Source: Fidelibacterota bacterium (GTDB taxonomy: Bacteria > Fidelibacterota > UBA8477 > JABMPR01). From it: a stretch of 64,000 bases of DNA. The notes below the pieces were generated by a model that saw only the letters and a list, made by a program, of their open reading frames with translations, was not told where the DNA came from and ran no database searches. This document shows positions 3,585 to 28,486 of this stretch, one piece after another (the first letter of the stretch is position 1; each line of letters begins with the position of its first letter). The position numbers and the translations under genes were made by a program. The stretch is from the NCBI GenBank assembly GCA_018673925.1, contig JABHBL010000022.1, forward strand, positions 304,006 to 368,005, given 5' to 3'.

Positions 3585-4892
3585 TCAAACTTTATTCATA
3601 AGTGCTTCAATTTCAGATATCTCTTTAGGAACGGCAGCGGTGAGGTTTTTGTTCCCAGACTCCGTGATGACAATATCGTCTTCAATTCGTATCCCAATTC
3701 CTCTGAATTTTTCAGGTGCTTTGGATTTTGAATTGACATAAATGCCAGGTTCCACAGTAAAAACCATGCCTGGTTTAAGCTCGATGGATTCACCATCAGC
3801 CATGTAGTTGCCCATATCATGGACATCCAGCCCCAGCCAATGGCCTGTATTATGCATGAAATAGTCCTGATAAGTCTTATTTTCGATAACTTCATCAGCA
3901 GTTCCATCCAACAATCCAATTTCTATCATCCCCTCAACCAGGAGTCTCAAATCCATTTTGTGAAGCTCCTTAAAGGTGACTCCAGGTTTTGAAGCTTCAA
4001 TTACTGCCTTCTGGGCTTTAAGAACTACACCATAAATGGCTTTTTGTGCTTCCGAGAATTTTCCATTTGCAGGAAAGGATCTGGTGATGTCTGCAGCATA
4101 CATGTCATATTCGGCCGCGGCATCAATGAGAATCATGTCCCCATCTACAATTTGGTCACGATTTTTTATATAATGAAGCACTGTCGCATTGTCTCCAGCT
4201 CCAACGATGGATGTATAGGCGGGTCCCGCACTTCCCTCGTGAACAAAGTGACTTTCCAGGACAGCCTGAAGTTGATATTCATACATGCCAGGTGAGCAGA
4301 CTTCCATGGCTTTTGAATGAGCATCTGCTGAGATATCCGCAGCTCTCTGTAAAAGTTTTATTTCGTGTTCATCTTTAATCAGTCGCATTCCATGAGTAAT
4401 AGAGCCAACTGATTCAAGCCCTACTGGACCTCCGCCGTTGCGTTGTACTTCTTTACGGACCTGACCTACGAGGTCAAGCATCTTGTACTGGTGAACCTTA
4501 TCATGATTCAGGTTGGTGTAAACTTTGGACGAGGTCTTCATAGCTGCCAGTGAAGCTGTTTCGAATTCTGCAATATCCAGAGCCTGATCAGCTTTATACT
4601 TGGCCACCGTTTCATCAAAACTGAGTCTCCAGCCAGTCCATACTTCTTTTTTAGGATCCTGGGGAAGCACAAACATGGTGAAGGGATTATCCTTGTTATT
4701 GGGATCAATAATACAAGCTGCACCGGGCTCCGTATATCCTGTGAGATAAAAGAAGTCGGAATCCTGTCTGTAGGGGTATTCAGTATCGTTTGTGCGAATT
4801 TGCTCGGGTGCTCCTTTTAGGATAGCCACACCCTTGCCCATAAGATTTATTAAATTTTGTCTGCGTCTATTGTAAATGTCACTATTAAACAT
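3585..4892 (-). CDS. pepP: Xaa-Pro aminopeptidase (M24B, AMP_N domain)
   Basis: 435 aa; RRQNLINLMGKGVAILKGAPEQIRTNDTEYPYRQDSDFFYLTG; metal ligands DAAAEYDMYAADITRSFPANG, HNTGHWLGLDVHD, PGMVFTVEPGIY. Confidence 0.93.
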   Translation of the reverse strand: MFNSDIYNRRRQNLINLMGKGVAILKGAPEQIRTNDTEYPYRQDSDFFYLTGYTEPGAACIIDPNNKDNPFTMFVLPQDPKKEVWTGWRLSFDETVAKYKADQALDIAEFETASLAAMKTSSKVYTNLNHDKVHQYKMLDLVGQVRKEVQRNGGGPVGLESVGSITHGMRLIKDEHEIKLLQRAADISADAHSKAMEVCSPGMYEYQLQAVLESHFVHEGSAGPAYTSIVGAGDNATVLHYIKNRDQIVDGDMILIDAAAEYDMYAADITRSFPANGKFSEAQKAIYGVVLKAQKAVIEASKPGVTFKELHKMDLRLLVEGMIEIGLLDGTADEVIENKTYQDYFMHNTGHWLGLDVHDMGNYMADGESIELKPGMVFTVEPGIYVNSKSKAPEKFRGIGIRIEDDIVITESGNKNLTAAVPKEISEIEALMNKV

Positions 4893-5089
4893 AATGCTTC
4901 AATGCTCCTTCTATAAGACAAAGAAAATAAATTGAGTGACCTCTCTGAACAAGGTACAACTTTATCGATTCCTGATTCCCTGGGAAGCATGTTTCAGGAG
5001 TATTCCCTGGCTATTCCAATTGGTTTCACCCGCGCTCCTCTTTAGATTGAATAGTTATGAACGCATCAATTGAAGGAATTTTCACATAA

Positions 5090-7009
5090 ATGAGTACCCA
5101 CTTCTCAGAGTCACTTAAATCCCTAACCCGCTACCAGCGTTATCAAAGTCGAGTCGTAAACATCGGCGATATTCCAATGGGTGGCAACCATCCCATTCGA
5201 ATTCAATCTATGACAAACACGAACACAATGGATACTCAAGCCACTGTTGACCAAACGATTCGTCTGGTAGATGCTGGTTGTGAATATGTCAGAATTACTG
5301 CCCCAAGTGTCAAAGAAGCCCAAAATCTGGGTGTCATCAAAGCCGAACTTAAAAAGCGTGGGTATACAGTTCCCATCATCGCAGATATTCATTTTGTTCC
5401 GCGCGCAGCAGAGGAAGCTGCCAAACTCGTCGAAAAGGTGAGGGTGAATCCAGGTAATTATGTGGATCGCAAAAGATTTGAGGAACTGGAATATAATCAA
5501 AGCGAGTACCAGGCCGAATTGGATCGCATTGAGAACAGATTTACACCCCTTGTGAAATTGTGCCGTGAAGCGGGTACGGCGATGCGCATCGGCTCCAACC
5601 ACGGATCACTTTCGGACAGAATTCTCAGCCACTATGGTGATACCCCTCAGGGTATGGTTGAGTCAGCCATGGAATTTGTGCGAATCTGCGCAGCAAATCA
5701 ATACCATGAGCTGGTCATCTCCATGAAGGCCAGCAACACCCGCATCATGATCCAGGCTTACCGCCTGTTGGTACACCAGATGAATCAGGAAGGATTTAAC
5801 TATCCCCTTCATCTGGGAGTAACAGAAGCAGGTGATGGTGATGATGCCAGGATCAAATCATCATTGGGAATTGGGTCTCTCCTGCGAGATGGTCTGGGTG
5901 ACACAATCAGAGTATCACTCACGGAAGCACCAGAAGCAGAAATTCCGGTGGCACTTTCAATCGTAAAATCTATTGAAAGTCTTCCACAACACCATGAGAT
6001 TGAGACACTATCTAACCTCCCAATCAATTTGTTTGAATACCGACGTAGAGAAACCCAAGCGAACGTTATAATTGGATCCGACAATGTCCCAGTTGTCATT
6101 GCTGACCTATCTGAGATGAGGAAGATCAACGAGGAGTTACTTACATCAGCCGGATATTATTTTGATTTATTAAGCAATTCCTGGAAGCGGGGTGATCAAG
6201 GTGCAGATATTCTCTATTTCGGTGAAAACAATCCAGATATTCAGCTTTCAGATAATACGCTAAGACTCTATGATTCAGATATATGGAGTGGTTTACCCTC
6301 GGTAGACAACTGTTATCCATTGTATACCTTGGAATCGTATTCATCCGCCTTGGTAAAACACAATATTGCCAACTTCATTGCCATCGACACAAGGACTTCA
6401 ATTGATGATCTACCTAAAGATTCGAATATTGTCTGGCTGCTCAGTTCAGACAATGAACATCAAATTGCCGATTTGCGAAGATTCATCCTTGAGTTATCAA
6501 ACGAGGGTTTCCGGCAACCCGTTATCCTTATGAATCGAATGACAGATCAACACCGTGAGGAATTTTTGCTTTCAGCAGCTGCTGAAATCGGTTCCATTCT
6601 AAACGATGGTCTGGCAGACGGAGTATGGATGCGGTCAAATCAGCTTGAGTTAAAAGATTTGAATGAAATTGCGTTTGGAGTATTACAGGCTAGCAGAAGC
6701 CGTATGACCAGGACTGAATACATTGCTTGTCCCTCCTGCGGTAGAACGCTTTTTGATCTTGAGGAAGTAACTGCTCAAATCCGTGAACGTACCAGTCATT
6801 TAAAAGGGGTTAAGATTGGAATCATGGGTTGTATTGTGAATGGCCCCGGTGAAATGGCTGATGCTGATTTTGGTTATGTAGGTACGGGACCCGGAAAGGT
6901 GTCTTTATATCGTGGACAGATGGTGGTTCGCCCTCATGTTCCGCAAACTGAGGCTGTGGATTCTTTGATTGACCTGATAAAAAGTGAAGGGTACTGGGTC
7001 GACCCCTAA
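5090..7009 (+). CDS. ispG: 4-hydroxy-3-methylbut-2-enyl diphosphate synthase, long (insert-containing) form
   Basis: 639 aa; N-terminal TIM barrel (GGNHPIRIQSMTNTNT) and C-terminal Fe-S motif CPSCGRTLFD...GIMGCIVNGPGEMADADFGYVG with a large central insert. Confidence 0.95.
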   Translation: MSTHFSESLKSLTRYQRYQSRVVNIGDIPMGGNHPIRIQSMTNTNTMDTQATVDQTIRLVDAGCEYVRITAPSVKEAQNLGVIKAELKKRGYTVPIIADIHFVPRAAEEAAKLVEKVRVNPGNYVDRKRFEELEYNQSEYQAELDRIENRFTPLVKLCREAGTAMRIGSNHGSLSDRILSHYGDTPQGMVESAMEFVRICAANQYHELVISMKASNTRIMIQAYRLLVHQMNQEGFNYPLHLGVTEAGDGDDARIKSSLGIGSLLRDGLGDTIRVSLTEAPEAEIPVALSIVKSIESLPQHHEIETLSNLPINLFEYRRRETQANVIIGSDNVPVVIADLSEMRKINEELLTSAGYYFDLLSNSWKRGDQGADILYFGENNPDIQLSDNTLRLYDSDIWSGLPSVDNCYPLYTLESYSSALVKHNIANFIAIDTRTSIDDLPKDSNIVWLLSSDNEHQIADLRRFILELSNEGFRQPVILMNRMTDQHREEFLLSAAAEIGSILNDGLADGVWMRSNQLELKDLNEIAFGVLQASRSRMTRTEYIACPSCGRTLFDLEEVTAQIRERTSHLKGVKIGIMGCIVNGPGEMADADFGYVGTGPGKVSLYRGQMVVRPHVPQTEAVDSLIDLIKSEGYWVDP

Positions 7010-11022: not shown

Positions 11023-14000
11023 TTAAAATCCCTTGTTGTTTGCGATCAGCATTATTGGTTGCGTTTTACCAATCTGTCGTGAAGGTTTCACCTTATCAAG
11101 GAACTCTATATGCTTGACTGTCAGAGAGATGGCCCCAAAGTCCTCCTCTACAAGGCCGCGTAAAAGATAGGGACGTGCATTGCTGAGCATGCGACAAAAC
11201 TTCCGATACACTTCAGGGAAAAACACGGTTTCGTAGATGGCTGTGGTATCCTCAAAGCTAATGAACTCCATGGGCTCATCATTCTTTGTGTGAACTACTT
11301 TCCCCGTAATGAGCCAGCCAATAACGGGAATCTCCTTCCCAACATACTTCCTAAGATCGCAGGCCCGTACATAAGCCAGATGCTGCAGCAGCTTCGCATA
11401 TAGACTCAAAGGGTGGCGTGAGATAAGAAAACCCAGGACATCAGCTTCATGAATGAGCATTGTTTTTTCAGAATATGCTCCTGTGTCAGGGATGTAGTAG
11501 CTGTCACGTTCGTTTAGATCCAACAGAGACGCTGGTTTATCCCGTCGTTGTTGGCTGGCTCTGGCCTGATACAGCTGCCACATGAGTCCGGGTCGGGCTT
11601 CTATACCCTCTACACCGTCAAAAGAACCTGCTTTGATGAGAATACGTACATCAGATTGATCCAACTCAGGCATACGTCTCAAGAAACTCTCAAATGAGCG
11701 AAAACGGCCATTTGTCTCCCGCTCAGCAACGATGTACTCCAGTGCGGTTCGTTTGATTCCCTTCAGTTGCATAAACCCTATCTGCACCCAGTCATTCAGA
11801 CCAGTATGTCGTATCTCTGAGTTATTGATACTGGGGAGCAGGACTTTCAAACCAAGACGACGCGCCTCCGAGTAATAGCCAAAAGTAGAGTAGTATCCAC
11901 CCAGATTGGTCATGACGGAGGCGATAAACTCCGCCGGATAGTGAGCTTTCAGATAGGCTGACTTGAATGAGACCAAAGCATATGAGGCAGAATGGGGCTT
12001 ACAAAAGGAATACCCTGAAAAGGACATGATCATTTCCCAGAGGGTTTCGATGATGCTATCTTCTACCCCATTCTCACGTGCTCCATTAACAAATTTCTCA
12101 CAATAATCACGGAGCTTAGCCTCTTTGTGTTTCTTGGACATGACCTTGCGCAATTCGTTGCCTTCATCGGCATCGAAACCGGCCAGACGCATAGCAACTC
12201 GCGTGACATCTTCCTGGTAAACCATTATCCCATAGGTCTCTTTGAGGGTTTCATCAAGTAAGGGGTGAAGTGGATCATAGTCACCACCATGGAGACGGCG
12301 GACAAACTCTCTGATCCATTTGTTGGCTGCCGGTCGGATAATACTGGAGGCAATGACCAGGTTTTCATAGTCACCCGTTTGCATCTTACTCAGCAGTTGA
12401 CGAGTAGCCGGGGACTCTACATAGAAACAGCCCATGGTGCGGGCAGTACGGATGAGCTCCTGGGTTCGTAAATCTTCCAGGGGGTTTAGTTTCCAATATG
12501 GGATATCCACACCATAATGCTCATGTACATCGGCCAGAATATCCCGAATGACAGCCAGAGAGCGATTTCCCAGGAGATCAATCTTGATCAGCCCAAAGTC
12601 CTCTGCCTGATCTTTCTCCCACTGGATGATCTGAACGCCTTTGGGAGCACGCTGAATCGGTACATAGCTACGGATTTCATGGGGTGTCAGGACAACTCCC
12701 CCGGGATGGACGCTCAGGTGTCTGGGAAATCCAGCAAGGTAGAAGCCATTACGGATTATCTCTGGCCAGGGGTCCTTGAGATCAAGATCGCTGAGCAAGG
12801 GATTGGTGGCTAGCTCCTCAAATGGGTCACTGACATACCATAAATGGGACAGACGCTTGGTTACAATACCTATCTCACTCTCAGTCAGTCCATATACCTT
12901 AGCTACTTCTCGAATAGCAGCCCGCGCCTTGAAGGTCACATGGTTACAGATCATGGCTGAATGGGAGTCACCGTAGGTATCAAAGGTATACTGCAAAATC
13001 TCGTCTCGAGTATCCCAGGGGAAATCCACATCAATATCTGGCGGGTCCTTGCGCCCGGGAGACAGGAAGCGTTCAAAGAAGAGATTGTGGCGGATGGGAT
13101 CGACATGGGTGATTTTCAATGTATAGGCGACAATACTGGCTGCAGCACTCCCCCGTCCACATGTGATGGGTGATTGCTTGACGATATCCTGAACTGTGAG
13201 GAAGTAATTAGAGAAGCGTTTCTCTTTAACAGTCTTCAACTCATGCTCAATGCGGTCTCGGATACGATCTGTCATATTGCCATAGCGCTCCTGAGCACCC
13301 AGATAGACACGATTTTTTAGTTCCTGGTAATCCCTGCTATCATTGGAGTCAGGAAAAATGAAGTTGTCCAGCGGTGGTCTCCACTGGCATTTTGCAGCAA
13401 TTTCCATGGTACGATCCAGGGCCTCCTCTGCAAAGGGCAGTACATCGAGCGTTTCTGCCGGACTATGGAGATAATTATCAGTGGGAATGAGTTCTTCTTC
13501 AGGCAAGCGTGACAGTTTGGTGTTCAGATTGATGGCGCGCATAATGCGATGGAGCTGATGTCCCCGAGGTGAGCCCATGTATGCAGGGATGTTAGCCACA
13601 CATGGAAAACCTTTCTCACGAGCCCAGTGGTACAAGCTGTAACTGCCTGATTTCAGGGAGACATACACATCCTCGGACTGGTATGCCTCCAGTAAATCAC
13701 GGCTCTGGGTCAGCATGACCAATCCTTCCAACCGTCCAGTGAGATGTTTGAGCAGATCGAAGCTTTCTTCAGCATCATGGCGCTGGCTGATCAGGCGACA
13801 AAGGTTGGAATAGCCTGTGATGTTTTTGACCAGCAGAACAGCCTTGCGCTTCTGCGCATCATCTAATGTTGCCCCAACGATCATATCCAGACCACGCTCT
13901 AGGGCTGTCTGATAAAGGAAGATCATGCCATAGAGATTATTGGTATCAGCAATGGCAAATTGGGTATAGCCCTTCTTGATCATGAAATCGCATAGATGCT

Positions 14001-14058
14001 TTGGGGAAAGGGTTCCCCTGAGTAAAGAGTAATGGCTATGGACTTCGAGAGGGATCAT
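11023..14058 (-). CDS. dnaE2: DNA polymerase III alpha subunit, DnaE2/ImuC type
   Basis: 1011 aa; PHP domain EVHSHYSLLRG; catalytic PDIDVDFPWDTRDE; VHPGGVVLTP; located in a lexA-linked operon with an ImuB-like protein. Confidence 0.9.
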   Translation of the reverse strand: MIPLEVHSHYSLLRGTLSPKHLCDFMIKKGYTQFAIADTNNLYGMIFLYQTALERGLDMIVGATLDDAQKRKAVLLVKNITGYSNLCRLISQRHDAEESFDLLKHLTGRLEGLVMLTQSRDLLEAYQSEDVYVSLKSGSYSLYHWAREKGFPCVANIPAYMGSPRGHQLHRIMRAINLNTKLSRLPEEELIPTDNYLHSPAETLDVLPFAEEALDRTMEIAAKCQWRPPLDNFIFPDSNDSRDYQELKNRVYLGAQERYGNMTDRIRDRIEHELKTVKEKRFSNYFLTVQDIVKQSPITCGRGSAAASIVAYTLKITHVDPIRHNLFFERFLSPGRKDPPDIDVDFPWDTRDEILQYTFDTYGDSHSAMICNHVTFKARAAIREVAKVYGLTESEIGIVTKRLSHLWYVSDPFEELATNPLLSDLDLKDPWPEIIRNGFYLAGFPRHLSVHPGGVVLTPHEIRSYVPIQRAPKGVQIIQWEKDQAEDFGLIKIDLLGNRSLAVIRDILADVHEHYGVDIPYWKLNPLEDLRTQELIRTARTMGCFYVESPATRQLLSKMQTGDYENLVIASSIIRPAANKWIREFVRRLHGGDYDPLHPLLDETLKETYGIMVYQEDVTRVAMRLAGFDADEGNELRKVMSKKHKEAKLRDYCEKFVNGARENGVEDSIIETLWEMIMSFSGYSFCKPHSASYALVSFKSAYLKAHYPAEFIASVMTNLGGYYSTFGYYSEARRLGLKVLLPSINNSEIRHTGLNDWVQIGFMQLKGIKRTALEYIVAERETNGRFRSFESFLRRMPELDQSDVRILIKAGSFDGVEGIEARPGLMWQLYQARASQQRRDKPASLLDLNERDSYYIPDTGAYSEKTMLIHEADVLGFLISRHPLSLYAKLLQHLAYVRACDLRKYVGKEIPVIGWLITGKVVHTKNDEPMEFISFEDTTAIYETVFFPEVYRKFCRMLSNARPYLLRGLVEEDFGAISLTVKHIEFLDKVKPSRQIGKTQPIMLIANNKGF

Positions 14059-14059
14059 T

Positions 14060-14486
14060 TAATTACGAATTACAAATTACGAATTTGATTTTTCATAGTG
14101 CGTTGAATACTGCCAAGGATCTTCAATAGCTCACTGCAATCTTCCAAAAGGGATTTAGACTGAGTTGGACTCAAATACCCGCTATCCTGCATAAGGCGAA
14201 GCCAGTAATGTGTCTCGCGTGCTTCCTTATATGAAATTGATAGCTTTGCCTGGAAATCTTTTTGTGATTGACCACCAATCGCTTCTTCCACATTTGCCCC
14301 GATAGATGTACCACTTTTCACTAGCTGTTTCGAAAGTACATACTCTTGTTTTTCTTTCACCAGGTACTGGTAAAGCTTCACGATTCTCACTGCAAATGCA
14401 TAGCTTTTTGTCTGAACTACATTGTTTTGCTTCATAGTCATTCCTAATTCCTAATTCCTAATTTGTAATTTCTTAGGGGGATCATT
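14060..14486. mobile_element. Putative mobile four-helix-bundle (IVP) cassette with TIRs and 9-bp target duplication
   Basis: GGGATCATT at 14051..14059 and 14478..14486; AATTACAAATTACGAATT (14068..14085) is inverted as AATTACAAATTAGGAATT (14453..14470, rc), 17/18 match; removing the insert restores an ATGA stop/start overlap. Confidence 0.7.
14070..14441 (-). CDS. Four helix bundle protein (23S rRNA intervening-sequence type)
   Basis: 123 aa; LSKQLVKSGTSIGANVEEAIGGQSQKDFQAKLSISYKEARETHYWLRLM signature. Confidence 0.88.
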   Translation of the reverse strand: MTMKQNNVVQTKSYAFAVRIVKLYQYLVKEKQEYVLSKQLVKSGTSIGANVEEAIGGQSQKDFQAKLSISYKEARETHYWLRLMQDSGYLSPTQSKSLLEDCSELLKILGSIQRTMKNQIRNL

Positions 14487-14856
14487 GTAGTCCGCCCTCA
14501 GGATGTGGCCGGATGGATCTCTGGTAGGCAATCAATTTTGGTCGCAAAGCATCATAGCCTCGTTCAAAGCGTTTTACCTCGGCCTCCTGCAGGTACTTGA
14601 GTTCCCTGGCAACCAACAATTGGGCATAAATCTCATTCAGAGCCCCCAGAGCAACATCTACGGCGTGCTGGCGGTCTTTGGTTGTGCGTCTAGAGGTTCC
14701 CTCAGCCAGAATAGCCGGGATACTCACTGCAGCTCGTTGAAGCTGGGCGGTCATACCCATACGTTCTTTATCCGGGAATTGTGAGGTAATGGTATAGATA
14801 TATTTGGCCATAAGTATTGCACGTTGGAAAACATCCAACCCCTTGAAGGTTGCCAT
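14482..14856 (-). CDS. Four helix bundle protein (IVP/Avd-like), mutasome operon member
   Basis: 124 aa; FPDKERMGMTAQLQRAAVSIPAILAEGTSRRTTKDRQHAVDVALGALNEIYAQLLVA; 2 nt after the imuB-like stop. Confidence 0.88.
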   Translation of the reverse strand: MATFKGLDVFQRAILMAKYIYTITSQFPDKERMGMTAQLQRAAVSIPAILAEGTSRRTTKDRQHAVDVALGALNEIYAQLLVARELKYLQEAEVKRFERGYDALRPKLIAYQRSIRPHPEGGLQ

Positions 14857-14858
14857 CG

Positions 14859-16091
14859 CTATGCCCTGACTGGGCTGTGTATGATATCGTTCCCAGTGTT
14901 CAGGACAATGGGCTCTGTGAGTCCAAATCGTATGACAGGGTAACCATGTCGGGCACGCAGCTTGTCCATGGCCTGGTGCAATTCGCCATGTTTGGCAGCA
15001 TCAGGATCAATCACCTTGGAAAAAAGACTGATCTGTTGGGCGGCCTGTATGAGGTTCTCAAAACCGATGGAGAGATAGCGAACCCGAGTACGTCGCTCAA
15101 AGAGTTGCTCAAAGATTTTCTGGGTATGATAGAACATGAGATATTCTTTATGCGTTGCTTCAGGTAGACGCACTGTACGTGTGGCAATCTTGCTGTCGGA
15201 ATAACGGCAAAAGATACGAAAGCTGTTGACCTTCTTGTTCTTCTGGCGCAAGCGGGTGCAGCCATTCTCAATGAGATAATAGACAACTCCCATAATCAAT
15301 TGGTCATCGTTGCTATCCTCACTGAAGGTATACTCCTCTTTTATCTCCAGACGCTGCTCTGGGGGCATTACAGGGCTTAGATCAATACCCAGAGCCTTCT
15401 GATGTAAGGTCAGAGCATTCTTGCCAATGACCAGAATCAACTTATTGATGGGAACTGCTGCCAACATACCAATGCTGGTCAGGTTCAACTCCTCCAGAAG
15501 CACCTGATCGGTGGTGTGACCAATACCTGGCAACATCTTGAGTTCCAGGGGATCCAGGAAGGTGCGCTCGTTGCCAGGTAAAACATCAAAAAGCTCAGCA
15601 TATTGGCGGATGTAGCGTGCTGCCACTGATGAAACCAGCTTGTTTGCAGAAATACCAATACTTGAAGTCAGGCGGAATGATTCACGGATATCCTTATGAA
15701 TACGATAGGCACTGTCCTTAATGCGTCCCAGCAAGCGTGTGGTACCCGTCATATCAATGGCAACCTGTCCATAGCGGATGGGCTCAACATAGGGTGAATA
15801 ACGGGAAACCTGACTGGTAATGGCGTTCATTGCGCGCTGGTAAAGTTCCGGATTGGAATCCACCACGATAAGACGATGCTCCAGTTTGAGTGCCTGTCCA
15901 AGAAGCATGCCCCGATGGATGCCTTCCTGGCGGGCTTCCCTGGAAGCTGATAATATGATTGCCCGTCCTCCAGATCCAGATGCCACCACCACAGGTCGAT
16001 CGCGATAGCTGCTATGGACAGCCTGCTCAACCGTAGCCGGGAATGATGGAACTTCTATGTGTAGAACATCTTTCATGGTCAAAAGTCCCAA
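14859..16091 (-). CDS. Y-family DNA polymerase homolog, catalytically degenerate (ImuB-like)
   Basis: 410 aa; palm/finger/HhH layout (YSPYVEPIRYGQVAIDMTG, LPGIGHTTDQVL); catalytic D/DE positions replaced; QISLF clamp-like motif near C-terminus. Confidence 0.85.
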   Translation of the reverse strand: MGLLTMKDVLHIEVPSFPATVEQAVHSSYRDRPVVVASGSGGRAIILSASREARQEGIHRGMLLGQALKLEHRLIVVDSNPELYQRAMNAITSQVSRYSPYVEPIRYGQVAIDMTGTTRLLGRIKDSAYRIHKDIRESFRLTSSIGISANKLVSSVAARYIRQYAELFDVLPGNERTFLDPLELKMLPGIGHTTDQVLLEELNLTSIGMLAAVPINKLILVIGKNALTLHQKALGIDLSPVMPPEQRLEIKEEYTFSEDSNDDQLIMGVVYYLIENGCTRLRQKNKKVNSFRIFCRYSDSKIATRTVRLPEATHKEYLMFYHTQKIFEQLFERRTRVRYLSIGFENLIQAAQQISLFSKVIDPDAAKHGELHQAMDKLRARHGYPVIRFGLTEPIVLNTGNDIIHSPVRA

Positions 16092-16191: not shown

Positions 16192-16398
16192 CTAACCGGC
16201 AAGGCGGCTGGTAGTGGCGATCTCATAGTGAATCACAGGAGCTGCTGGACGGACAGGCCTGGTTTGTTTCTTCGGTGCAGGGACAGTGGCCGAAAGTCCA
16301 GCTACTCCATGGGATACTGACGACAATACAGCTCTGGTTCTTCCCCGGGGACCACGAAACAGGCTGGAGGCGGGCTGAGGTATTGAATTGTATCGCAT
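16192..16398 (-). CDS. Small basic/proline-rich ORF between lexA and imuB-like gene
   Basis: 68 aa; AAAAGGATCACAT-ATG places an RBS ~7 nt upstream; fits operon spacing. Confidence 0.5.
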   Translation of the reverse strand: MRYNSIPQPASSLFRGPRGRTRAVLSSVSHGVAGLSATVPAPKKQTRPVRPAAPVIHYEIATTSRLAG

Positions 16399-16436: not shown

Positions 16437-17045
16437 CTACGCTTGATATTGCCGAAGGAGACCAACAACAACACCCTTGAGGGCAAAGTCATCATCTTCT
16501 TCCACCAGGATGGGCTGATACTGGCCGGAACTGTTACAGGGACGTAGTGTGACCCCACCAGGATGCAGGTCCAGCTTTTTGACTGTGGCCTCTCCGTTGA
16601 TGGTGGCGACTACAATCTGGCCGCTTTCAGCTTTGGGTTGGGGTTTTACAATGATGACATCACCATCTTCAATATTGGCATCCATCATAGAATCTCCACG
16701 AACCCGTAATGCAAAATTATTGGTTCCTTTGAGAAGGTAGCGTGGCACTTCCACAGGTTCAGGAATCTCAATCGCCTCAATGGGGATACCAGCAGTGACC
16801 TGTCCCAGGATATCCAGAACAACCGTCTCTCCTACCAGACCAGTCAGCCGAATATTGCGGGCAGCATTGCTCTTATTAAAAGAGATATAGCCCCTTTCAC
16901 GCAGAATGTTCAGTTTCTTCTGGATAGAGAAATTGGAATTCAATCCAAAGAATTCCCGTATCTCAGAAATAGTTGGCGCCATCTGGTGGCTCTGAATGAA
17001 CTGTGAGATGTATTCGTAGAGTTCGCGTTGCTTTTTGGTTAGCAT
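16437..17045 (-). CDS. lexA: LexA repressor
   Basis: 202 aa; LTKKQRELYEYI N-terminus, VTAGIP cleavage site, GDSMMDANIEDGD catalytic Ser, GEATVKKL catalytic Lys. Confidence 0.95.
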   Translation of the reverse strand: MLTKKQRELYEYISQFIQSHQMAPTISEIREFFGLNSNFSIQKKLNILRERGYISFNKSNAARNIRLTGLVGETVVLDILGQVTAGIPIEAIEIPEPVEVPRYLLKGTNNFALRVRGDSMMDANIEDGDVIIVKPQPKAESGQIVVATINGEATVKKLDLHPGGVTLRPCNSSGQYQPILVEEDDDFALKGVVVGLLRQYQA

Positions 17046-17257
17046 GCTCTTGCTCCATGGGTGACATCAACATATATGTTTGTGCTCTGTGTCTCACTAT
17101 ATCGTGCAACAGTAGCCAAAGCATCAGATTGGAGAAATCTATGATCAACAGTCTTCTCTGCCATTGCAGTAGGAGTAATGTCCACAAGATCAAACACTTC
17201 TATGGCATGCTGGATTAATCGTTCTCCATGCCCAAAGTTTCTATGGTTCTGATGCAT
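17039..17257 (-). CDS. Small ORF overlapping the lexA start (possible leader gene)
   Basis: 72 aa from MHQNHRN; RBS GGAGAAG upstream; stop overlaps the lexA ATG by 7 nt; downstream of a good promoter. Confidence 0.4.
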   Translation of the reverse strand: MHQNHRNFGHGERLIQHAIEVFDLVDITPTAMAEKTVDHRFLQSDALATVARYSETQSTNIYVDVTHGARAC

Positions 17258-17296
17258 TTTCTTCTCCGCTTTCCATTCAGTTTTTTTCATGGATCC

Positions 17297-17325
17297 AATA
17301 TAGGTGTACAAAAGGTGTATATCAA
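17297..17325 (-). promoter_or_regulatory. Sigma70-like promoter for the lexA/mutasome operon with candidate LexA operator
   Basis: TTGATA-N17-TATATT on minus strand; spacer is TACACC-TTTTG-TACACC (direct repeat, 11-bp period). Confidence 0.65.
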
Positions 17326-18634: not shown

Positions 18635-21600
18635 CTACCTTAGAACCAGCATTTTGACAGTTTTCGCATAGCCCTTGCCCGTCATGAGTCGGGCAAAGTA
18701 AAGACCACTACTTACCTGTTTGCCCTGGTCATCCAGGCCATTCCAGATAATAGAGTAACTGCCAGGCTGCATTTGAGTTTCCATGAGAGTCCGAACTTCC
18801 TGACCCCTGATATTGTAGACACTAAATCTAATATCCTGATTTAAACCATCCAGAAAGCCTATATCAAAATCAATCGTCGTTGTAGGATTAAAGGGATTGG
18901 GGTAGTTCTGCGACAATTGGCTCTTCTCAGGGACAATAATGGTTCGTGGTCCTAATTTAAAGGAACCCATTGTGGCAGCCCAGGCCCTGACCCGTTCTCC
19001 ATCTGAGACCGACGCCAATTCAACATAATCTCCGGCTATATCCTGGATGTAGATAGCTTGATCATTTGTCAGTGCCGGCATACTCACCAATACAGGTTCA
19101 GCGAGAACCACACCATCTGTGAGCACTTTGTAGCGTGCATCATCGTTAGCACTTAACATTGAATCCAATACTGCAATTCGAGTTGATTTAGCAGCACTGT
19201 TTGAGCTACCCTTTATTTCAAATTGCTCATCAGGACTGCGCGCTAACCATCCAGATCCACGTTTAATCAGGCTAACGGTGACATTGACTGTTATGGTTGT
19301 GTCTCCAACCCAGTTCTCAGCGTATACCTCAAAAGCGTTGAGACCTTCAGTAGAAACTTCTACAACAGCTACATAACTGAAAGTATCAATAGTTGTAAGC
19401 TCAACTTCCAGTCCTGAATGCGTAACCGAAAGTGAATCAATCATACCCAGGCTATCTACAATCATCATTTCATAATATGAGGGGTATGCCCTGTTTTTAT
19501 AAAATGCGACAACAGGTGCTGGAACATCAAAAATATCCAAGGACACCTTGACAGTAATTGTATCCTGGAGGGGATCATTTGTCAGAAGCCGGAATTGACC
19601 ACCATATCCACCTACAGTAAATGCAGCTGGACTGATATTAATAGCAATAACGGCACTACTGTCATATTCAATGGTATCAGCCTCAATTGGCAGACTTATC
19701 CATGCTGGTGCATCCAAAAGTGACCATCGTAAATCAGTCAAACCAAGATTGCTCAGGGTAAAGGATGTGTCAATTTCAGTCAGTCGCGCAATATTAACAG
19801 CGATGCTATCAGTGTTTAACACTGCAAAGGCAGAGGATGTTGTCACATGAAAGGTATCTGCAACAGCTGAAGTATCAGCCTGATCCAATGCACGAACATA
19901 CCACTCTATAATACTGGATGGAAAATCCATCACTGAGACATCAACAGTGATTGACGTGTCCCCAGTTGCAAGCATGGTATCATAGTCAGCACCTTCAAGG
20001 CTGAGTCGATAGGTAACTGGGTTGTCCTCTATATCAAACGCTGTGGTCCAGGAAAATGTCAATAAGAGACTATCACTAGGACTCAATTGGGTTGAATCAG
20101 CTGGCAACAGTAGTGTTACTGGTTCAGGCGCATCATTGACCTGCAGCACTTCAATTACATACTGGGTAGTGTCTGCTTCTCCCAGGTGGTCCCTAACCCG
20201 GACAATAAGTGTGTCTAACCCAACATCTGCATTCAATGGGGTCCATGAAATCATTCCAGTCAGGGAATCAATTTCCGCACTATCTGGATATTGGATCATG
20301 GAGTAGAATAATGAATCTCCACTGATCGTCTCAAGATCCAGATCTGTAGCCGGGAGGATAAAGTTATACAAAGTATCCTCCTGAATACTAGTATCTGCTA
20401 TGGCTAGAAACTCGGGAGGTGAATTTATTACAAATTGGAAGATATCCACACTGGTTGGATTTTGATAGTTATAAGCACTATCAATGGCCATAACTTCGAC
20501 CTGATAATCAATTCGATTATCCAGAGAATCACCTGGCAGAACCACCTGCCAAGAACCATTCTCCATAAATGTAAATTGAGTCATACTATCAGCTTGCCAA
20601 TCCGAGGTGATGTCATTCCACCACAGAGAATCTGACATTCTCTTGATATTTACCCAGACACTATCTACTCCCGAAAGTTCATCGCTGGCAATACCTGTAA
20701 TGGATGAGTCAGCATTCCACTCCCCAATATGGTAAAATGGGTCCAGGTTAAGCGCATTCAGAGGCCGTATCAAATCTGCTACTACGCCCTGTGTGGAAAT
20801 AGTATCAGAAATATTGCCAGCTGAATCAAGACTGCGGACATTGATAAAGAAACTATCGGCGTGTACGAAAGTCCCAAATGTATCAATCATGACCGTATCT
20901 AAAGTGAGGTCATACCAATTGACCTCATCTGCCAGACCAGCTGAGCTACCAATGGAATATTCGTATCTAAGAATATCAGATACTGGATCTGCAAAACCAT
21001 CCCAGGCCGCGGCGAGGGTATCATCAGCATTCACAAAGCCATTCATATAGGTGGCCGATGGAATAAAATGACCCGTATCAGGAGCAGTTTGATCAATGAC
21101 AAATACGGTATCTATACGTGTGCTGGTCGTGGAATTTCCGAATGCATCAATGATATCAACTTCCATGACAATAATTGCACCATCCGAAAAATCTCCAGGG
21201 CTGGCTACAATGCCTTCGATTTCTGCGGCCGTATAGCTTAATTGTCGATCGATGAAGGCTGTGATTTCAGTCGTATCGCCGAGAACAATAAAATTTTCAG
21301 CTTGCCAGGTACTGAGATGGATCCAGCTGTAAACAATACCATCAATCAGCGAGTTATCAGTGTCATCAATAGGTACTGTCATGTCAAGACCAGTACTATA
21401 TGAGTTCCAATATCCTTCAACAACGTTGCTACCCGATGTCGAGTAGGTATCGATGGTTATCTCACCTGGAACCACGCGATCCACAAATAATTCAAAAATA
21501 CTACGATTACCTTGTGTCTCATTCCCAGCATTGTCGCGCAAAGTTACTGTTGTCAGGAATGTGATATCATTATCAAAACCTGCTAAAGTATCTATGCTGG

Positions 21601-24600
21601 TTGAATCCAGGGTTACAATTTGGACCGTATCCAGATCTGTAATACTAATGAGCGTGTCCAGCGTCAACCAGCCAGAGCCCATATCAAATTGAGGAATGAT
21701 ATAGCCTGAGGACAATGTTGGATCATCAGCAATGGGTACATGGATTGTGATGCCTGCGTTTGTTGAATTGAATGCATTCACAACTATATTCCCATTGTAT
21801 GCCATCACCGTATCAACGTCAGCCACAGCGGGTCCAGCAATATCAAGGAATAGTGAGTCAGTGATCATCGATCCGGCAGTTTGATTGCCAGCTCTATCCG
21901 TCATCACAATTCGAGTATAAACATATTCACCATCACTGTTATCATAGTTTGCTAAATTCTGAATATCCACAGCTTCAACAATAATCGTCGTATCTGTATT
22001 CACTGTAAATATGGGAATATTACTCAGCACAAAACTTGGGCTGCCAACTTCAGTAATTTGCATGGTTACATCAGCATAGCCATTTACCATAGTGGAATCA
22101 TCTGGGATGCTCAGAGTCAATGCCAGTGAATCAGAGTTTGCATTCCAGGTGTTTTCTGGAAGGTTTTCACCATAAATGGAATCAAGAACTGCTGTGAAGT
22201 TAGCAGGTGGCGTAACATCAATCTCCAGTAGTGTAAGACTGGTATCATAAACGGTTGCATTCCCAGCTTGATCAAGTACAAATGCCTGGAATTCCAGGAA
22301 TTTGCCACTTCCAAAGTTGGTTAAGTTTACAATTTCAGTCGAATCAATGGTGATTATGTGTGTCGGATCAACAGTTTGAAGGGTATCTATTTTCAGAAAT
22401 GTCTCAAATGGGAATGGAATCACGCGCCCCATACAAAAGACCTCGCCTCCAAGCATGGACAAATCAGTATCATCCAATGGAACGATGATATTGACCTGGT
22501 TATTCTCCAGCATCCAATATCCTGGAGAAATTGTCCCTCCTGAGGTAGTAACAATTCCTGTAGAATTATCAGCATGGGGTATTTGATCTACAACTGTGAC
22601 TGGTTGTCCAACTGGACTACTTGTCGTGTTCCCTGCAACATCAGTGAGGATGGCATCAAATTCAAGCGTTTGAACCGTACCCCAGTCTATCAATGCTTCA
22701 AGGGTATCCCGTGGAACCGAAATAGTGATATCTTCCAGAGTGGTAACGGATACCGGTGACATGACATCCTCCTGGAGATTTACTCCCACGCGCAGCTGGA
22801 GCTCTCCCCCAATAAGGGTATTGTCACCATCCGGTAAATTAATGGTTACCTCGATACTATCATTTGTGAGGTTAAAGTAATTGTCCCGGATAGTACCGCC
22901 TGTAGCCAGCATAGTTTCCAGATCAAATGCACCTGGAGCCGTGTAATCGACAATGAGTGAATAAAGGGGTGTACTTTCAGTCACATTTCCCGCTCTATCA
23001 GTAAGAACTGGCGTAAATCTGAGCGTATCCCCATCGTTGAACAGAAGTGTATTCAGATCAGCTGCTGAAAGATTCATCGTAAGTGTTGAACCGATATCTC
23101 CTTCAACAAGGATTGAATCAAAACCAGATTCGGCAAACGGTGTACCTCCTCCAATTCTGGATCTAAGATCAAAGAGGCCCCCAATCATACTGCTGTCATT
23201 TGGAATCTCTGCAGTAATAGTATACTGGGTGTTTGTTGCATTCCAACGTGCTGTATTGTACTCAATGCCACCACTGGCAGCATAAGTCCCTTCAGTAATC
23301 AAATCTGGATAGGTAACATCTATCTGTAAAGTTGTTTCACTCGTATTGCCTAAAGTTTGATTGCCAGGCATGTCTGTAATCACACCGCGAATTTGAATGG
23401 AATCACCGATGGCAAAATTTGGCAATGCTTCCACTTGTGCTGCACTCAATGTGATTGTAATAGGATCTGCTGTTGAAATCGTAACCGTGCCACCAATGTT
23501 CACAAATGGATTTTCATCAACACGCCCCTGTAGTCGAGCACTTCCACTGATGAGCGATCCATCAAAAGCCGAAATGGGCAAGGTTACTCGAATAGAATCT
23601 GTGGTTGCATTGTAATAACCTGAAACGACAGGATCACCTACAACTACTATATCTCCAGTATCTATAGTATCTGGGACCACACCATCAATGTGCAGATCAA
23701 AATCAGAAAGTATGGTTCCTTCAGTAGGAATTGCCAAATCAACTGGATTTCCAACAATATTGGCCAACGTACCAGTCCCGCTTACTCTAATTTCAAAGAC
23801 AGATAATACGTCCACCGAATCACCTGGCAACACTTCATACGAGAAGGTCGCCTGAGATGTATTGTTTATGGAACCAGCAGCTATGCCAACAACACGGTTG
23901 GTATCACCGGTTTCCAGGCTTACAAGCAGTGAATCTGTATCCAGGCTAACACTCTCTTCGAAAGTGACGATGATATCAATCGCATCCCCGATCTTATAGA
24001 ACGCATCTGAAGTGCTTGTGGTGGTGATATTGAGAATGACCGGATTATCACCATAGAGGTTAATACTCCGTACATCAAGATTTGCACCATCTGGAATACT
24101 GAGATCGGCAAGATTACCTGCCAGATCATATACTGCATCGGAAGTTGTAGTGACACTATCAATACTCAGTGGAGCTGCATTATCCTCAGCTGCTACCATA
24201 AAATTAAAGGAAAGTGTATCTGATTCATCGATGCTGTTTGTATCCAGAACACGAGCTGAATTTGTATTCAAATACGTGTAAAGTGTTGCACCACTCATGT
24301 TCACAGGCTCTGAAAAATTCACTCTCACATTAACATTATCATTGATGCCATAGTTGCCATCAGCGTTGAGAGACGTAATATTGTCAATAACTGGAATATC
24401 CCGATCCACATAAAATGTATCTGTACTTGCAGCAGAGCTTAATTTCTCGTTGCCTGCATAATCCTCAATAAGAGCTGTGATGTGATAAACTTTATCGTCA
24501 TCAAAGGACGTATGAGACTCGACTTCACTTTGGTTCAATGGAATAATCACCGCATCTCCGATGTCTCCAGATCCAATGGTGTAGGAACTTCCCAAAGTTT

Positions 24601-27600
24601 GTCTGCCTGATATTGAGGCAAAATAGCCCTGAACATAAACGCGACCTCCAACCAGAGATTGATCATCTCCAATATCAAAGGCGATGTTCATTAGGGTATC
24701 CGAGCCATTCCAATAACCTGAGGTAGGATTAGTACCATTAATTGTAATAGCGCCCACGGTAAAATCTGCAGGGGCATTACCATCAACAATAATAGCTGCA
24801 TTATCAGCCAGGTTTGAATCGGCGGGAAGGGTGGTTAGCACAACTGCATTACCACCAATATCAATAATATCACCACCGTCCACTCCAATACCTGTGACTG
24901 TTAAATCAAGACTGGAATCACCTGCAGCTACTGTTAATGTGGCTGTGGCCTCTCCACTGGATATAACTGTCGCATCTATGATCTGATCAACACCATCACC
25001 TGTATCCAGTGTAATCTGCAATTCACTACCTGTTGAGAAACTCACATTCTCACTAAAGCGAACCGTAATGTCTAGACTCTCACCGATACCAAGTGTATCA
25101 GCTGCGGTTTCGGCATAGATACTCTGGATAAAAGGAACTTCACCATCTACTGTCAGAGCGCTGTTGTCTGACAGGTTTTCACCTGTTGGTATGCTTGATA
25201 AATCTGCAGTATTACCTGCAGAATCTTGTAATGTCGCTGCTGATGTTGATACAGAGTTTACATCTAAATCTGTACTATACTCATCTGCTGAAACTGTATA
25301 AGACATAATGACTGAGTCAGTCAATGCAAAGCTGGTCAGAGTTATTACAGCATCATCTACAACATCTCCTGTCTCCAGCTCGGTGCGTAATGTACCACCC
25401 CCAACTAACTTGACATCTTCATTGAAAGTCAATGTGATGGTTGCATTATCGCCAATACCAAGGGTATCAACCGAGGGGTCTGAAAATATGGATGTTATCG
25501 TAGGTGATAGCTGATCAATATCGAAACTACTGGCACTCTCTGTACCGGAAGTACTGTTTCCAGCATTATCTGTGAGAACTGCAGTGAAATGCAATTCCGC
25601 ACCATTAGCAAAACTTGATATACCTTCAACTGCACTGGAATCAAGGGTTACATCCAGTGGACTTCCATAGGCCACCAGTTCTACTGGATCACCTATATCC
25701 TCAGGTGTATTACTCCCTATATAGCCTTGAAGTTGAACGGTTCCACCATCCAATGAAGGATCATTCTTGATGGGAACACTCACAGAGATACCACTGTTAT
25801 CCTGATTCCAATATCCAGCAACTACATTGGGACCGGTAATCGTTACTGCACCTACTGTAAAAGCTATCGGAGCTATTCCATCTACCTTGATAGCTGCATT
25901 ATCAGCCAGATTGGAATCTGCTGGAAGGGTGAAAATAGAACTATTTCCACCAGCATCAACCAGACTACCAGCATTCATCTCTAAACTTATTACTGTAAGA
26001 TCCAAACTGGAATCACCAACAGATACTGTATAACTGGCCATCATCTCAGTTCCGCTAATACTTGTCGCAGAAATGACTTGGTCGGTGTCCCCGGTCTCTA
26101 GAGTTATATTTAATGAATCACCACCAGAAAAACTCACATTTTCATTGAATCGAACTGTAATATCAACAATCTCACCCACACCTGCGGTATCGGTTGCGGT
26201 ACTTGCATAAATACTTTGGATAACGGGAGCTGCTCCATCGATAACCAGGTTACTATTATCAACCAAATTTTCACCTGGAGGCAATGTGGATAAATCAGCC
26301 TCATTTCCAGCCGAATCCTGCAGGGTTGCTCCCGAGGTTGACACTAAAATTACGTCCAAATCTGCGCTGGATTCACCTGCAGATACTTCGTAGGAAAAAT
26401 TTACCACATCTGTGAGTGAAAAACTACTCAACGTAGCAACCGCATCAGCAACTAGTTCACCAGTCTCAAGTGTCGTTCTTAATGTACCAGCACCTATTAA
26501 TTTTACCTCCTCATTAAAAGTCAAAGTGATAGTTGCCGAATTCCCAATTCCCAGCGTATCGTCAGACGGACTTGATGTAATACCTGAAATGGTGGGAGAA
26601 GTTTGATCTATTGTGTAACTGATGGCACTGGGACCACCCTGTTTACTATTGCCTGCATTATCTGTGATGATAGCAGAAATGTGAAATATTTTGCTATCCG
26701 AAAACCCTGGTATCCCCTCAACAAAACTAGAATCAAGCAACACATCAAGAGTATCTCCAACAGTTTCTAGAGTCACAGCATCGCCAATTGACTCAGCAGT
26801 ATTCGTTCCTGTATAACCCTGCAATTGAATGGTACCCCCATCAAGGGAAGGATCATTATTAACGGGGACTCGAACAGATATACCACTATTATCCTGATTC
26901 CAATATTGAGGAACCACATTGGGACCGGTAATTGTAAATGGACCGACAGTAAATGAAGCCGGATATTCACCGTCAATTACTAGTTCATCTTCACCATTAG
27001 CAACATCAAGATCAGTCACGCCAGTAAGGGTTAATCTATTAGTCACACTATTTCCACCATCATCCTTCAACGTGGCACTGTCTGTCAATGACAGGCTGTC
27101 CACCGATAAATCGGTGGATTGATCAGTTTCAGAAATTGTATAAGTGGCAGTCACAGAGTTCCCACTAGGATTACTCACATCAACCGGGGTTGTAACACCA
27201 TTTAAATAGAGTTTGAGCGATCCAGAACCAGCAAGTTCTACCTCATCAGTAAAATTTATAGTGATGTCGATTTGGTCCCCAATTCCCAGTATTCCACTAG
27301 GCTGTGAAGAAGAAAAGGATTTAATGAGAGGTGCAATTCCATCAATGTGGAGATTACTATTACTGGCTAAAGGGATTGAGCCAAGTCGGCTCACATTTGC
27401 ATCATTACCTGCAAGGTCTCGGAGCGATCCAAATGCGATCAAAACTGAATCCACATCCAAATCCCCAATACTATCACCTTCAACAACTGTGTAAGTCCCA
27501 GACGGAGAGTCATCATTGGAAAAACTTCCAATACTCACATCTGTGGGGACACCTGTTAGATCAATATCAATCTGACCATCCAGTGTAACTGCTTCATCAA

Positions 27601-28486
27601 ATTCGATGCTAATTGATGGTGTCGCATCAATACCAAAGGTTCCAAAAACCGGAGTAGAGGTAAATCCATCGATTGTAGGAGCAGTTTGATCAACGTTAAG
27701 CGTTGAGGAACTAGCACTTACAATTGTTGAATTTCCAGCATAGTCCGTAATAATGGAAGCAATTTTTAATACCTCACCATCGGTAAAACCGCCAATGCTT
27801 TCTATTCGTGTATTACTTACAGTAACTAATTGATCGTCATTTGGATATATGTTTAATGTAGTAGGAGAGCTGATCGTATCATCTATTGTGGCTGTTGCGC
27901 CAAAATAACCCAGAATTTGAATGGTGCCATCTTCTAAGGAAGCATCTGCATCTATATCGGTATAAACCTTTATGCCAGTACTGGTTGAGTTCCAATACCC
28001 AGCTTTTATCACTGACCCAGTTGTAAGTACCGAATCTGGGCTAATATCTGCAGGTGCAGTTTCATCAAATTGAAATGGTGGATCTAAAGCCAGTAGAGTT
28101 AACGGTGCATTGTTAGATTGCTTAAACTGTACTTTAAATTGAAGAGTGTTACCTGCAGAAGTGAATCCAGATAATGCTTGCAGTTCAGCATCAGTATAAG
28201 TTACGGTTATGGATGAATCAGTACTAGTTGAAAAATCAACGGCCAACAATGTTGATGACTGGAAACCATTTGAGAATAACTGAATTTGATATTTCCCAAT
28301 CAATGTATCTCCTGGCACAGTAAAACTAAAGGTTCCACCCGTATTGCCAGCATTCCAGCGGTCGCTCACAACGGTTCCGCCCGTTGGGGCAAAAGTCTGT
28401 CCCATGACAAGAGAACCCATTAATAAGAAGAAAATGAGACCTCGCTCAAATATTCTAACAACGCCAGTTTTTGCTGAATTCTTCAT
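18635..28486 (-). CDS. Giant Ig-like repeat surface protein with C-terminal T9SS-type/FlgD-like sorting domain
   Basis: 3283 aa; signal peptide; repeating [Y]WN..GI...LxGGxxxLQGY and GI(G)D..TITLTFNExVxL modules; cadherin-like stretch; C-terminus SQNYPNPFNPTTTIDFDIG...SSGLYFARLMTGKGYAKTVKMLVLR. Confidence 0.9.
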   Translation of the reverse strand: MKNSAKTGVVRIFERGLIFFLLMGSLVMGQTFAPTGGTVVSDRWNAGNTGGTFSFTVPGDTLIGKYQIQLFSNGFQSSTLLAVDFSTSTDSSITVTYTDAELQALSGFTSAGNTLQFKVQFKQSNNAPLTLLALDPPFQFDETAPADISPDSVLTTGSVIKAGYWNSTSTGIKVYTDIDADASLEDGTIQILGYFGATATIDDTISSPTTLNIYPNDDQLVTVSNTRIESIGGFTDGEVLKIASIITDYAGNSTIVSASSSTLNVDQTAPTIDGFTSTPVFGTFGIDATPSISIEFDEAVTLDGQIDIDLTGVPTDVSIGSFSNDDSPSGTYTVVEGDSIGDLDVDSVLIAFGSLRDLAGNDANVSRLGSIPLASNSNLHIDGIAPLIKSFSSSQPSGILGIGDQIDITINFTDEVELAGSGSLKLYLNGVTTPVDVSNPSGNSVTATYTISETDQSTDLSVDSLSLTDSATLKDDGGNSVTNRLTLTGVTDLDVANGEDELVIDGEYPASFTVGPFTITGPNVVPQYWNQDNSGISVRVPVNNDPSLDGGTIQLQGYTGTNTAESIGDAVTLETVGDTLDVLLDSSFVEGIPGFSDSKIFHISAIITDNAGNSKQGGPSAISYTIDQTSPTISGITSSPSDDTLGIGNSATITLTFNEEVKLIGAGTLRTTLETGELVADAVATLSSFSLTDVVNFSYEVSAGESSADLDVILVSTSGATLQDSAGNEADLSTLPPGENLVDNSNLVIDGAAPVIQSIYASTATDTAGVGEIVDITVRFNENVSFSGGDSLNITLETGDTDQVISATSISGTEMMASYTVSVGDSSLDLTVISLEMNAGSLVDAGGNSSIFTLPADSNLADNAAIKVDGIAPIAFTVGAVTITGPNVVAGYWNQDNSGISVSVPIKNDPSLDGGTVQLQGYIGSNTPEDIGDPVELVAYGSPLDVTLDSSAVEGISSFANGAELHFTAVLTDNAGNSTSGTESASSFDIDQLSPTITSIFSDPSVDTLGIGDNATITLTFNEDVKLVGGGTLRTELETGDVVDDAVITLTSFALTDSVIMSYTVSADEYSTDLDVNSVSTSAATLQDSAGNTADLSSIPTGENLSDNSALTVDGEVPFIQSIYAETAADTLGIGESLDITVRFSENVSFSTGSELQITLDTGDGVDQIIDATVISSGEATATLTVAAGDSSLDLTVTGIGVDGGDIIDIGGNAVVLTTLPADSNLADNAAIIVDGNAPADFTVGAITINGTNPTSGYWNGSDTLMNIAFDIGDDQSLVGGRVYVQGYFASISGRQTLGSSYTIGSGDIGDAVIIPLNQSEVESHTSFDDDKVYHITALIEDYAGNEKLSSAASTDTFYVDRDIPVIDNITSLNADGNYGINDNVNVRVNFSEPVNMSGATLYTYLNTNSARVLDTNSIDESDTLSFNFMVAAEDNAAPLSIDSVTTTSDAVYDLAGNLADLSIPDGANLDVRSINLYGDNPVILNITTTSTSDAFYKIGDAIDIIVTFEESVSLDTDSLLVSLETGDTNRVVGIAAGSINNTSQATFSYEVLPGDSVDVLSVFEIRVSGTGTLANIVGNPVDLAIPTEGTILSDFDLHIDGVVPDTIDTGDIVVVGDPVVSGYYNATTDSIRVTLPISAFDGSLISGSARLQGRVDENPFVNIGGTVTISTADPITITLSAAQVEALPNFAIGDSIQIRGVITDMPGNQTLGNTSETTLQIDVTYPDLITEGTYAASGGIEYNTARWNATNTQYTITAEIPNDSSMIGGLFDLRSRIGGGTPFAESGFDSILVEGDIGSTLTMNLSAADLNTLLFNDGDTLRFTPVLTDRAGNVTESTPLYSLIVDYTAPGAFDLETMLATGGTIRDNYFNLTNDSIEVTINLPDGDNTLIGGELQLRVGVNLQEDVMSPVSVTTLEDITISVPRDTLEALIDWGTVQTLEFDAILTDVAGNTTSSPVGQPVTVVDQIPHADNSTGIVTTSGGTISPGYWMLENNQVNIIVPLDDTDLSMLGGEVFCMGRVIPFPFETFLKIDTLQTVDPTHIITIDSTEIVNLTNFGSGKFLEFQAFVLDQAGNATVYDTSLTLLEIDVTPPANFTAVLDSIYGENLPENTWNANSDSLALTLSIPDDSTMVNGYADVTMQITEVGSPSFVLSNIPIFTVNTDTTIIVEAVDIQNLANYDNSDGEYVYTRIVMTDRAGNQTAGSMITDSLFLDIAGPAVADVDTVMAYNGNIVVNAFNSTNAGITIHVPIADDPTLSSGYIIPQFDMGSGWLTLDTLISITDLDTVQIVTLDSTSIDTLAGFDNDITFLTTVTLRDNAGNETQGNRSIFELFVDRVVPGEITIDTYSTSGSNVVEGYWNSYSTGLDMTVPIDDTDNSLIDGIVYSWIHLSTWQAENFIVLGDTTEITAFIDRQLSYTAAEIEGIVASPGDFSDGAIIVMEVDIIDAFGNSTTSTRIDTVFVIDQTAPDTGHFIPSATYMNGFVNADDTLAAAWDGFADPVSDILRYEYSIGSSAGLADEVNWYDLTLDTVMIDTFGTFVHADSFFINVRSLDSAGNISDTISTQGVVADLIRPLNALNLDPFYHIGEWNADSSITGIASDELSGVDSVWVNIKRMSDSLWWNDITSDWQADSMTQFTFMENGSWQVVLPGDSLDNRIDYQVEVMAIDSAYNYQNPTSVDIFQFVINSPPEFLAIADTSIQEDTLYNFILPATDLDLETISGDSLFYSMIQYPDSAEIDSLTGMISWTPLNADVGLDTLIVRVRDHLGEADTTQYVIEVLQVNDAPEPVTLLLPADSTQLSPSDSLLLTFSWTTAFDIEDNPVTYRLSLEGADYDTMLATGDTSITVDVSVMDFPSSIIEWYVRALDQADTSAVADTFHVTTSSAFAVLNTDSIAVNIARLTEIDTSFTLSNLGLTDLRWSLLDAPAWISLPIEADTIEYDSSAVIAINISPAAFTVGGYGGQFRLLTNDPLQDTITVKVSLDIFDVPAPVVAFYKNRAYPSYYEMMIVDSLGMIDSLSVTHSGLEVELTTIDTFSYVAVVEVSTEGLNAFEVYAENWVGDTTITVNVTVSLIKRGSGWLARSPDEQFEIKGSSNSAAKSTRIAVLDSMLSANDDARYKVLTDGVVLAEPVLVSMPALTNDQAIYIQDIAGDYVELASVSDGERVRAWAATMGSFKLGPRTIIVPEKSQLSQNYPNPFNPTTTIDFDIGFLDGLNQDIRFSVYNIRGQEVRTLMETQMQPGSYSIIWNGLDDQGKQVSSGLYFARLMTGKGYAKTVKMLVLR

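Follow-up and report, generated by a model that had tools for sequence, protein, structure and literature searches.

A probably domesticated four-helix-bundle gene of the intervening-sequence type between imuB and dnaE2 in a lineage of Neomarinimicrobiota

A four-helix-bundle (4HB) gene, fhb1, lies between an imuB-like gene and dnaE2 in a lexA-led operon of a Ca. Neomarinimicrobiota MAG, which represents uncultured marine bacteria. From the window, i.e. the whole 64,000-nucleotide stretch of DNA analysed here, and from related genomes, we consider it probable (about two chances in three) that fhb1 is a settled, domesticated 4HB gene of the intervening-sequence (IVS) type that occupies an insertion hot slot and encodes a functional protein which is optional for the mutasome, with RecA likely in the role of ImuA. 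An earlier note had seen in its product a mutasome component, perhaps an adaptor in ImuA's place; both proposals are disfavoured by the comparison with relatives.

Operon layout and identity of the four-helix-bundle genes

The genes are arranged in the order lexA-orf68-imuB-fhb1-fhb2-dnaE2, with a conserved small ORF ahead of lexA (Table 1). This confirms the order described previously, with the refinement that two 4HB genes precede dnaE2. The latter encodes the second DnaE of the genome, the other being located at G000:C69 and 30% identical. The genome contains a single exact match to the motif TACACC-N5-TACACC, which is also the sole exact match in the window, and the motif was not found near recA; judging from the sequence it is a likely candidate for a local operator of LexA, and fhb1 is probably LexA-controlled. 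The small ORF orf90 has a conserved ERLIQHAIEVFDLVDI core and is possibly an SOS-induced small protein, while orf68, conserved across the genus, carries an RGPRGRTR motif at its N-terminus and a variable C-terminus and matched no known family in Pfam and NCBIfam profile searches. Elsewhere in the window, an ORF of 3283 aa (18635-28486, minus strand) contains repeated Ig-like/cadherin-like segments and a secretion-type tail at the C-terminus.

Table 1. Features of the operon in the window, with RAYT-like copies at the loci of relatives
Feature	Position	Strand	Basis
Putative LexA operator TACACC-N5-TACACC, upstream of orf90/lexA	17303..17319	-	identical in 9 genus genomes
orf90, conserved small ORF overlapping the lexA start	17039..17311	-	ORF call; 8-genome alignment
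lexA	16437..17045	-	TIGR00498 162 bits, above cut-off
orf68, genus-conserved small protein	16192..16398	-	aligned in 14 genomes
imuB-like; Y-family protein, catalytically dead, with a clamp-like QISLF and a C-terminal motif resembling the RecA N-terminus	14859..16076	-	PF00817/PF11799
fhb1, four-helix-bundle gene of PF05635; type A, no inverted repeats at its flanks	14482..14856	-	profiles, survey, structure model
Left 12-bp duplication copy AATGATCCCCCT, vestigial dnaE2 start overlapping the fhb1 stop	14475..14486	-	sequence
Heptamer-like repeats (AATTAGG)n upstream of fhb2	14442..14471	-	sequence
fhb2, second PF05635 gene, repeat-flanked	14070..14441	-	profiles; close copy at same place in G002, related copies elsewhere
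Heptamer-like repeats (AATTCGT)n downstream of fhb2, inverted versus the upstream set	14060..14085	-	sequence
Right 12-bp duplication copy AATGATCCCTCT, holds dnaE2 start codon	14048..14059	-	sequence
dnaE2	11023..14058	-	PF07733/PF17657
RAYT-like copies	L066:1862-2461; L067:2286-2876; L063 about 4700-5290; L072:3211-3840		

Members of the widespread S23/IVP family are known above all from inserts in rRNA. With 124 aa and an ATG start, fhb1 is a real ORF, and it matches both PF05635 (23S_rRNA_IVP; 94.6 bits against a cut-off of 33.8, E 5e-27) and the TIGR02436 four helix bundle model (83.4 bits against 24), whereas its scores against the bAvd (16.8, cut-off 40) and Avd (31.4, cut-off 80) models are sub-threshold. 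An AF2 model built with 22 sequences (pLDDT 91.8) predicts four helices at residues 8-24, 35-53, 59-85 and 91-114, and most closely resembles 2gsc (X. campestris XCC0516; TM 0.84-0.95) as well as 2rld, the same two PDB entries that the sequence profile picks out; Avd follows after these (4dwl, TM 0.74/0.85). The IVP/Avd-like fold suggested earlier is thereby borne out, the Avd part of it in structure only.

The junctions are tight on both sides. The imuB stop at 14859 and the fhb1 start at 14856 leave a spacing of 2 nt, so the coordinates agree with the coupling claimed before. At the other end, the TGA of fhb1 overlaps the ATG of ATG ATC CCC CTA, which duplicates the beginning of dnaE2 (MIPL). 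The 12-mer AATGATCCC[C/T]CT, which includes the dnaE2 start, occurs on either side of fhb2, and in G018 and G009, which have no fhb2, the gap between fhb1 and dnaE2 is 1 nt; together these observations support the ancestral ATGA overlap of fhb1 and dnaE2 that had been postulated. Because both the duplication and inverted AATTAGG/AATTCGT heptamer-like repeats frame fhb2, this second gene most probably entered at the dnaE2 start when fhb1 was already in place. G002 carries a close fhb2 (88-89% identity) at the same site without fhb1.

Occurrence in relatives and the absence of ImuA

Among the 15 imuB-bearing relatives in the genus, MAGs in which single absences may be assembly errors and in which most junctions read are continuous, fhb1 is intact in nine and truncated in one, and in the remaining five its site is empty or taken by a Y1/RAYT-like gene or another 4HB. 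The copies fall into type A (G000, G007, G018, G009, G013 and G004; 95-97% identical to the window copy) and type B (G012, G011, G015 and G005; 63-66%). The claim that fhb1 is a component of the mutasome finds no support in this survey, which turned up the very situation that the earlier note had named as a refutation, the operon in relatives that lack the gene: imuB and dnaE2 are adjacent in G014 (L075), a RAYT-like gene fills the gap in G001 (L072), G017 (L077) and G003 (whose contig ends inside the RAYT-like gene), G002 (L076) has fhb2 alone, and in the sister genus G019 (L078) lexA, imuB and dnaE2 are directly coupled. In G016 a truncated type B copy is directly followed by an open dnaE2. 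The other loci of the phylum lack fhb1 and any 4HB, except for a distant 4HB between lexA and imuB in G084.

The operon slot is repeatedly invaded by small modules, namely fhb2, RAYT-like genes and PD-(D/E)XK genes. RAYT-like genes are also found beside fhb1, before it in G013 and G004 and after it in G007. G003 and G017 have a different 4HB between lexA and orf68, and junctions are filled by PF13366 (PD-(D/E)XK) genes in G039 (two), G061 and G096. Against a null that is uniform (about 0.95 gene per kb), rough and set after seeing the data, the two lexA-imuB-dnaE2 junctions of 26 genomes outside the genus hold five 4HB/PF13366 genes versus 0.16 expected (P about 7e-7; P 2e-5 when the four genomes are counted), and at least three 4HB events within the genus compare with 0.07 expected (P about 5e-5). 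The closest copies of the RAYT-like (Y1 transposase) subfamily all lie in the imuB-dnaE2 gap, at differing positions relative to fhb1. Three members of the genus (G003:C1:114254, G011:C30:43113 and G012:C47:142994) also have PF13366 genes at a distance of about 1 kb from the recA match, possibly another association with SOS genes.

The earlier description of the operon as ImuA-less holds: NF033429 scored above its cut-off in 0 of 100 genomes, the sub-threshold matches being RecA-sized frames in most, i.e. RecA only. Catalytic residues are missing from the imuB product (HIEVPSFP/RYGQVAID versus HLDLDAFF/SIDEAYLD in DinB), so that an inactive Y-family protein is coupled to DnaE2 with no ImuA detected in the genome, and fhb1 itself encodes a four-helix bundle and not a RecA-like fold. 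In species with and without fhb1 alike, ImuB contains QISLF along with a stretch similar to the N-terminus of RecA; its LHQAMDKLRARHGYPVIRFG resembles LAVSQIERQFGAGAVMRLG of the RecA from the same genome, as judged by eye and without statistics. Such operons have precedents, since PolY-DnaE2 operons that lack ImuA and have a RecA-like motif have been described and RecA proposed for ImuA's place (Timinskas and Venclovas 2019, PMC6511836). Those operons share with the present one lexA, an inactive Y-family protein, here with a seemingly RecA-like motif, and DnaE2, and neither ImuA nor a standalone ImuB-C is seen; the genus studied here differs by extra small genes inside the operon (orf68, 4HB, RAYT). 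Since ImuA is undetected phylum-wide irrespective of 4HB genes, the seemingly RecA-like motif is present with or without fhb1 and ImuA-less variants have been published, the absence of ImuA is unrelated to fhb1. By the motif in ImuB, RecA rather than fhb1 probably takes ImuA's place.

Relatives elsewhere, flanking repeats and selection

When 84,980 species genomes of GTDB were scanned with fhb1, matches were obtained at the imuB-dnaE2 locus alone, with peptide patterns that reach close relatives only. The next-best matches within the phylum (121-147 bits) are located between MoxR-like and DUF58 genes, names that rest on reading of the sequences and not on profile search. This MoxR-4HB-DUF58 order is found in seven genomes, the G171 contig begins at the 4HB ahead of DUF58, and G032, G039, G033 and G028 are among the genomes in which the MoxR-like gene directly adjoins DUF58. 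The 4HBs of these operons in other Neomarinimicrobiota (L170-L177) are the closest relatives of fhb1 (39-49% identity, alignment A2) and likewise sit between two neighbouring genes with similar repeat flanks, albeit in a different host operon.

Several of the MoxR-DUF58 4HBs have flanks of the GTTAGGA/CCTAACA type, as does type B fhb1, and a similar GTTAGAA-like sequence is present at the imuB 3' end of G014 and G001, which lack fhb1. The upstream and downstream flanks complement each other with a median score of 13.5 in 41 4HB genes of the phylum versus 7.0 in 83 control ORFs (maximum 10.0), and 68% of the 41 beat all 50 shuffles; fhb2 of G002 scores 27.5. The window copy of fhb1 scores 7.0 (p about 0.3), like a control and without terminal inverted repeats, and by the same measure the other type A copies have no inverted flanks either; type B scores are borderline (p 0.02-0.09), with none in G005. 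That fhb1 might be an actively mobile copy finds no support, given that it has no inverted flanks and that the scan met its close relatives at the imuB-dnaE2 locus alone.

The elements most akin to fhb1 are the IVS of 23S rRNA genes with their S23p/IVP proteins (PF05635; 2gsc, 2rld), of which that of Coxiella bears inverted repeats at its ends and tandem heptamers ahead of the S23p ORF (PMC4990558). Protein family and fold are shared, as are the patchy presence and, around the relatives of fhb1 in the phylum, the inverted flanks and short tandem repeats. However, fhb1 lies between imuB and dnaE2 of an SOS operon and not inside a 23S rRNA gene. Flanks are absent from the window copy, and its ORF is subject to strong purifying selection whereas that of Coxiella is decaying. 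A search of open-access papers found nothing relevant on 4HB genes with imuB or on repeat-flanked 4HB genes outside rRNA.

Pairs of type A fhb1 have dN/dS values of 0.01-0.07, similar to imuB and dnaE2, which agrees with the previous view of fhb1 as a functional gene under selection. The fhb1 protein is used, and the constraint is a family trait: dN/dS is 0.023 for fhb2, 0.04-0.06 for the MoxR-DUF58 4HBs and 0.19-0.39 for RAYTs. As fhb2, which has kept its flanks, and the MoxR-DUF58 4HBs are equally constrained, selection on fhb1 is not mutasome-specific, and purifying selection was discarded as proof of a role there. Furthermore, although G012 has type B, both the imuB and the dnaE2 tree place it with G013 inside the type A species; alleles have therefore been exchanged at the fhb1 slot.

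Origin of fhb1 and competing explanations

We envisage the ancestor of fhb1 as a small element of the S23/IVP (23S-rRNA-intervening-sequence-protein) family with inverted heptamer-like flanks, which would have entered the junction of the coupled imuB and dnaE2 genes in an ancestor within the Neomarinimicrobiota genus. The lineage of the window would then have lost the flanks, of which remnants stay in type B copies. A site between coupled genes presumably leaves the operon readable, so that such elements may persist. Co-transcribed under LexA, fhb1 would give rise to a four-helix ring of five subunits, like that of 2gsc, which probably binds nucleic acid, most likely the RNA of its own operon. 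The mutasome would work without it, RecA most likely replacing ImuA through the RecA-like motif of ImuB.

The most serious competitor, which we nevertheless regard as unlikely, is that this clade has taken fhb1 into service as an SOS-induced accessory of ImuB and DnaE2, structural or RNA/DNA-binding, neither ancestral nor a replacement of ImuA. The very low dN/dS and the loss of flanks across several species could also reflect such a recruitment, and the 2-nt spacing, the 1-nt/ATGA junctions and the confinement of close relatives to this locus in the pattern scan point the same way. A further weakness of the preferred reading is that no target duplication was seen to mark the first (type B) insertion. 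Against recruitment, dN/dS is just as low in repeat-flanked fhb2 and in the 4HBs at MoxR-DUF58, dnaE2 is still open in sister species with an absent or truncated fhb1, and the A/B swap in G012 is accompanied by no evident change in ImuB.

Far less credible is fhb1 as an adaptor that stands between ImuB and DnaE2 in place of ImuA. No ImuA was found in the operon or the genome and fhb1 is tightly coupled, but relatives without both ImuA and fhb1 keep imuB-dnaE2 intact, the seemingly RecA-like motif of ImuB occurs regardless of fhb1 as in the described ImuA-less systems, and the closest 4HBs reside in the MoxR-DUF58 operon; presence and absence across relatives largely refute this replacement. 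We give similarly little credence to an Avd-type partnership with a reverse transcriptase, as in diversity-generating retroelements (DGRs). The four-helix-bundle fold is indeed that of Avd/bAvd (4dwl, 8ub7), but both models score far under their cut-offs and the only PF00078 (RVT_1) match of the genome is on another contig, C55; on the scores and the lack of a linked reverse transcriptase this partnership was rejected as well.

The domesticated IVS-type 4HB remains our preferred reading. More tentatively, IVS-type 4HB genes may form a class of mobile units that settle between translationally coupled genes (imuB-dnaE2, MoxR-DUF58) and leave operons unbroken, with a preference for SOS operons and a capacity to be domesticated as SOS-induced nucleic-acid-binding proteins, fhb1 being one such copy. 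Operon coupling alone is a poor ground for inferring functional partnership, and the type A, type B, truncated and absent states of fhb1 provide natural before/after pairs for probing the function of the 4HB protein. Overall, the S23/IVP family is encountered here in protein operons, flanked by repeats; it recurs in a DNA-damage operon and in some cases has settled under strong selection.
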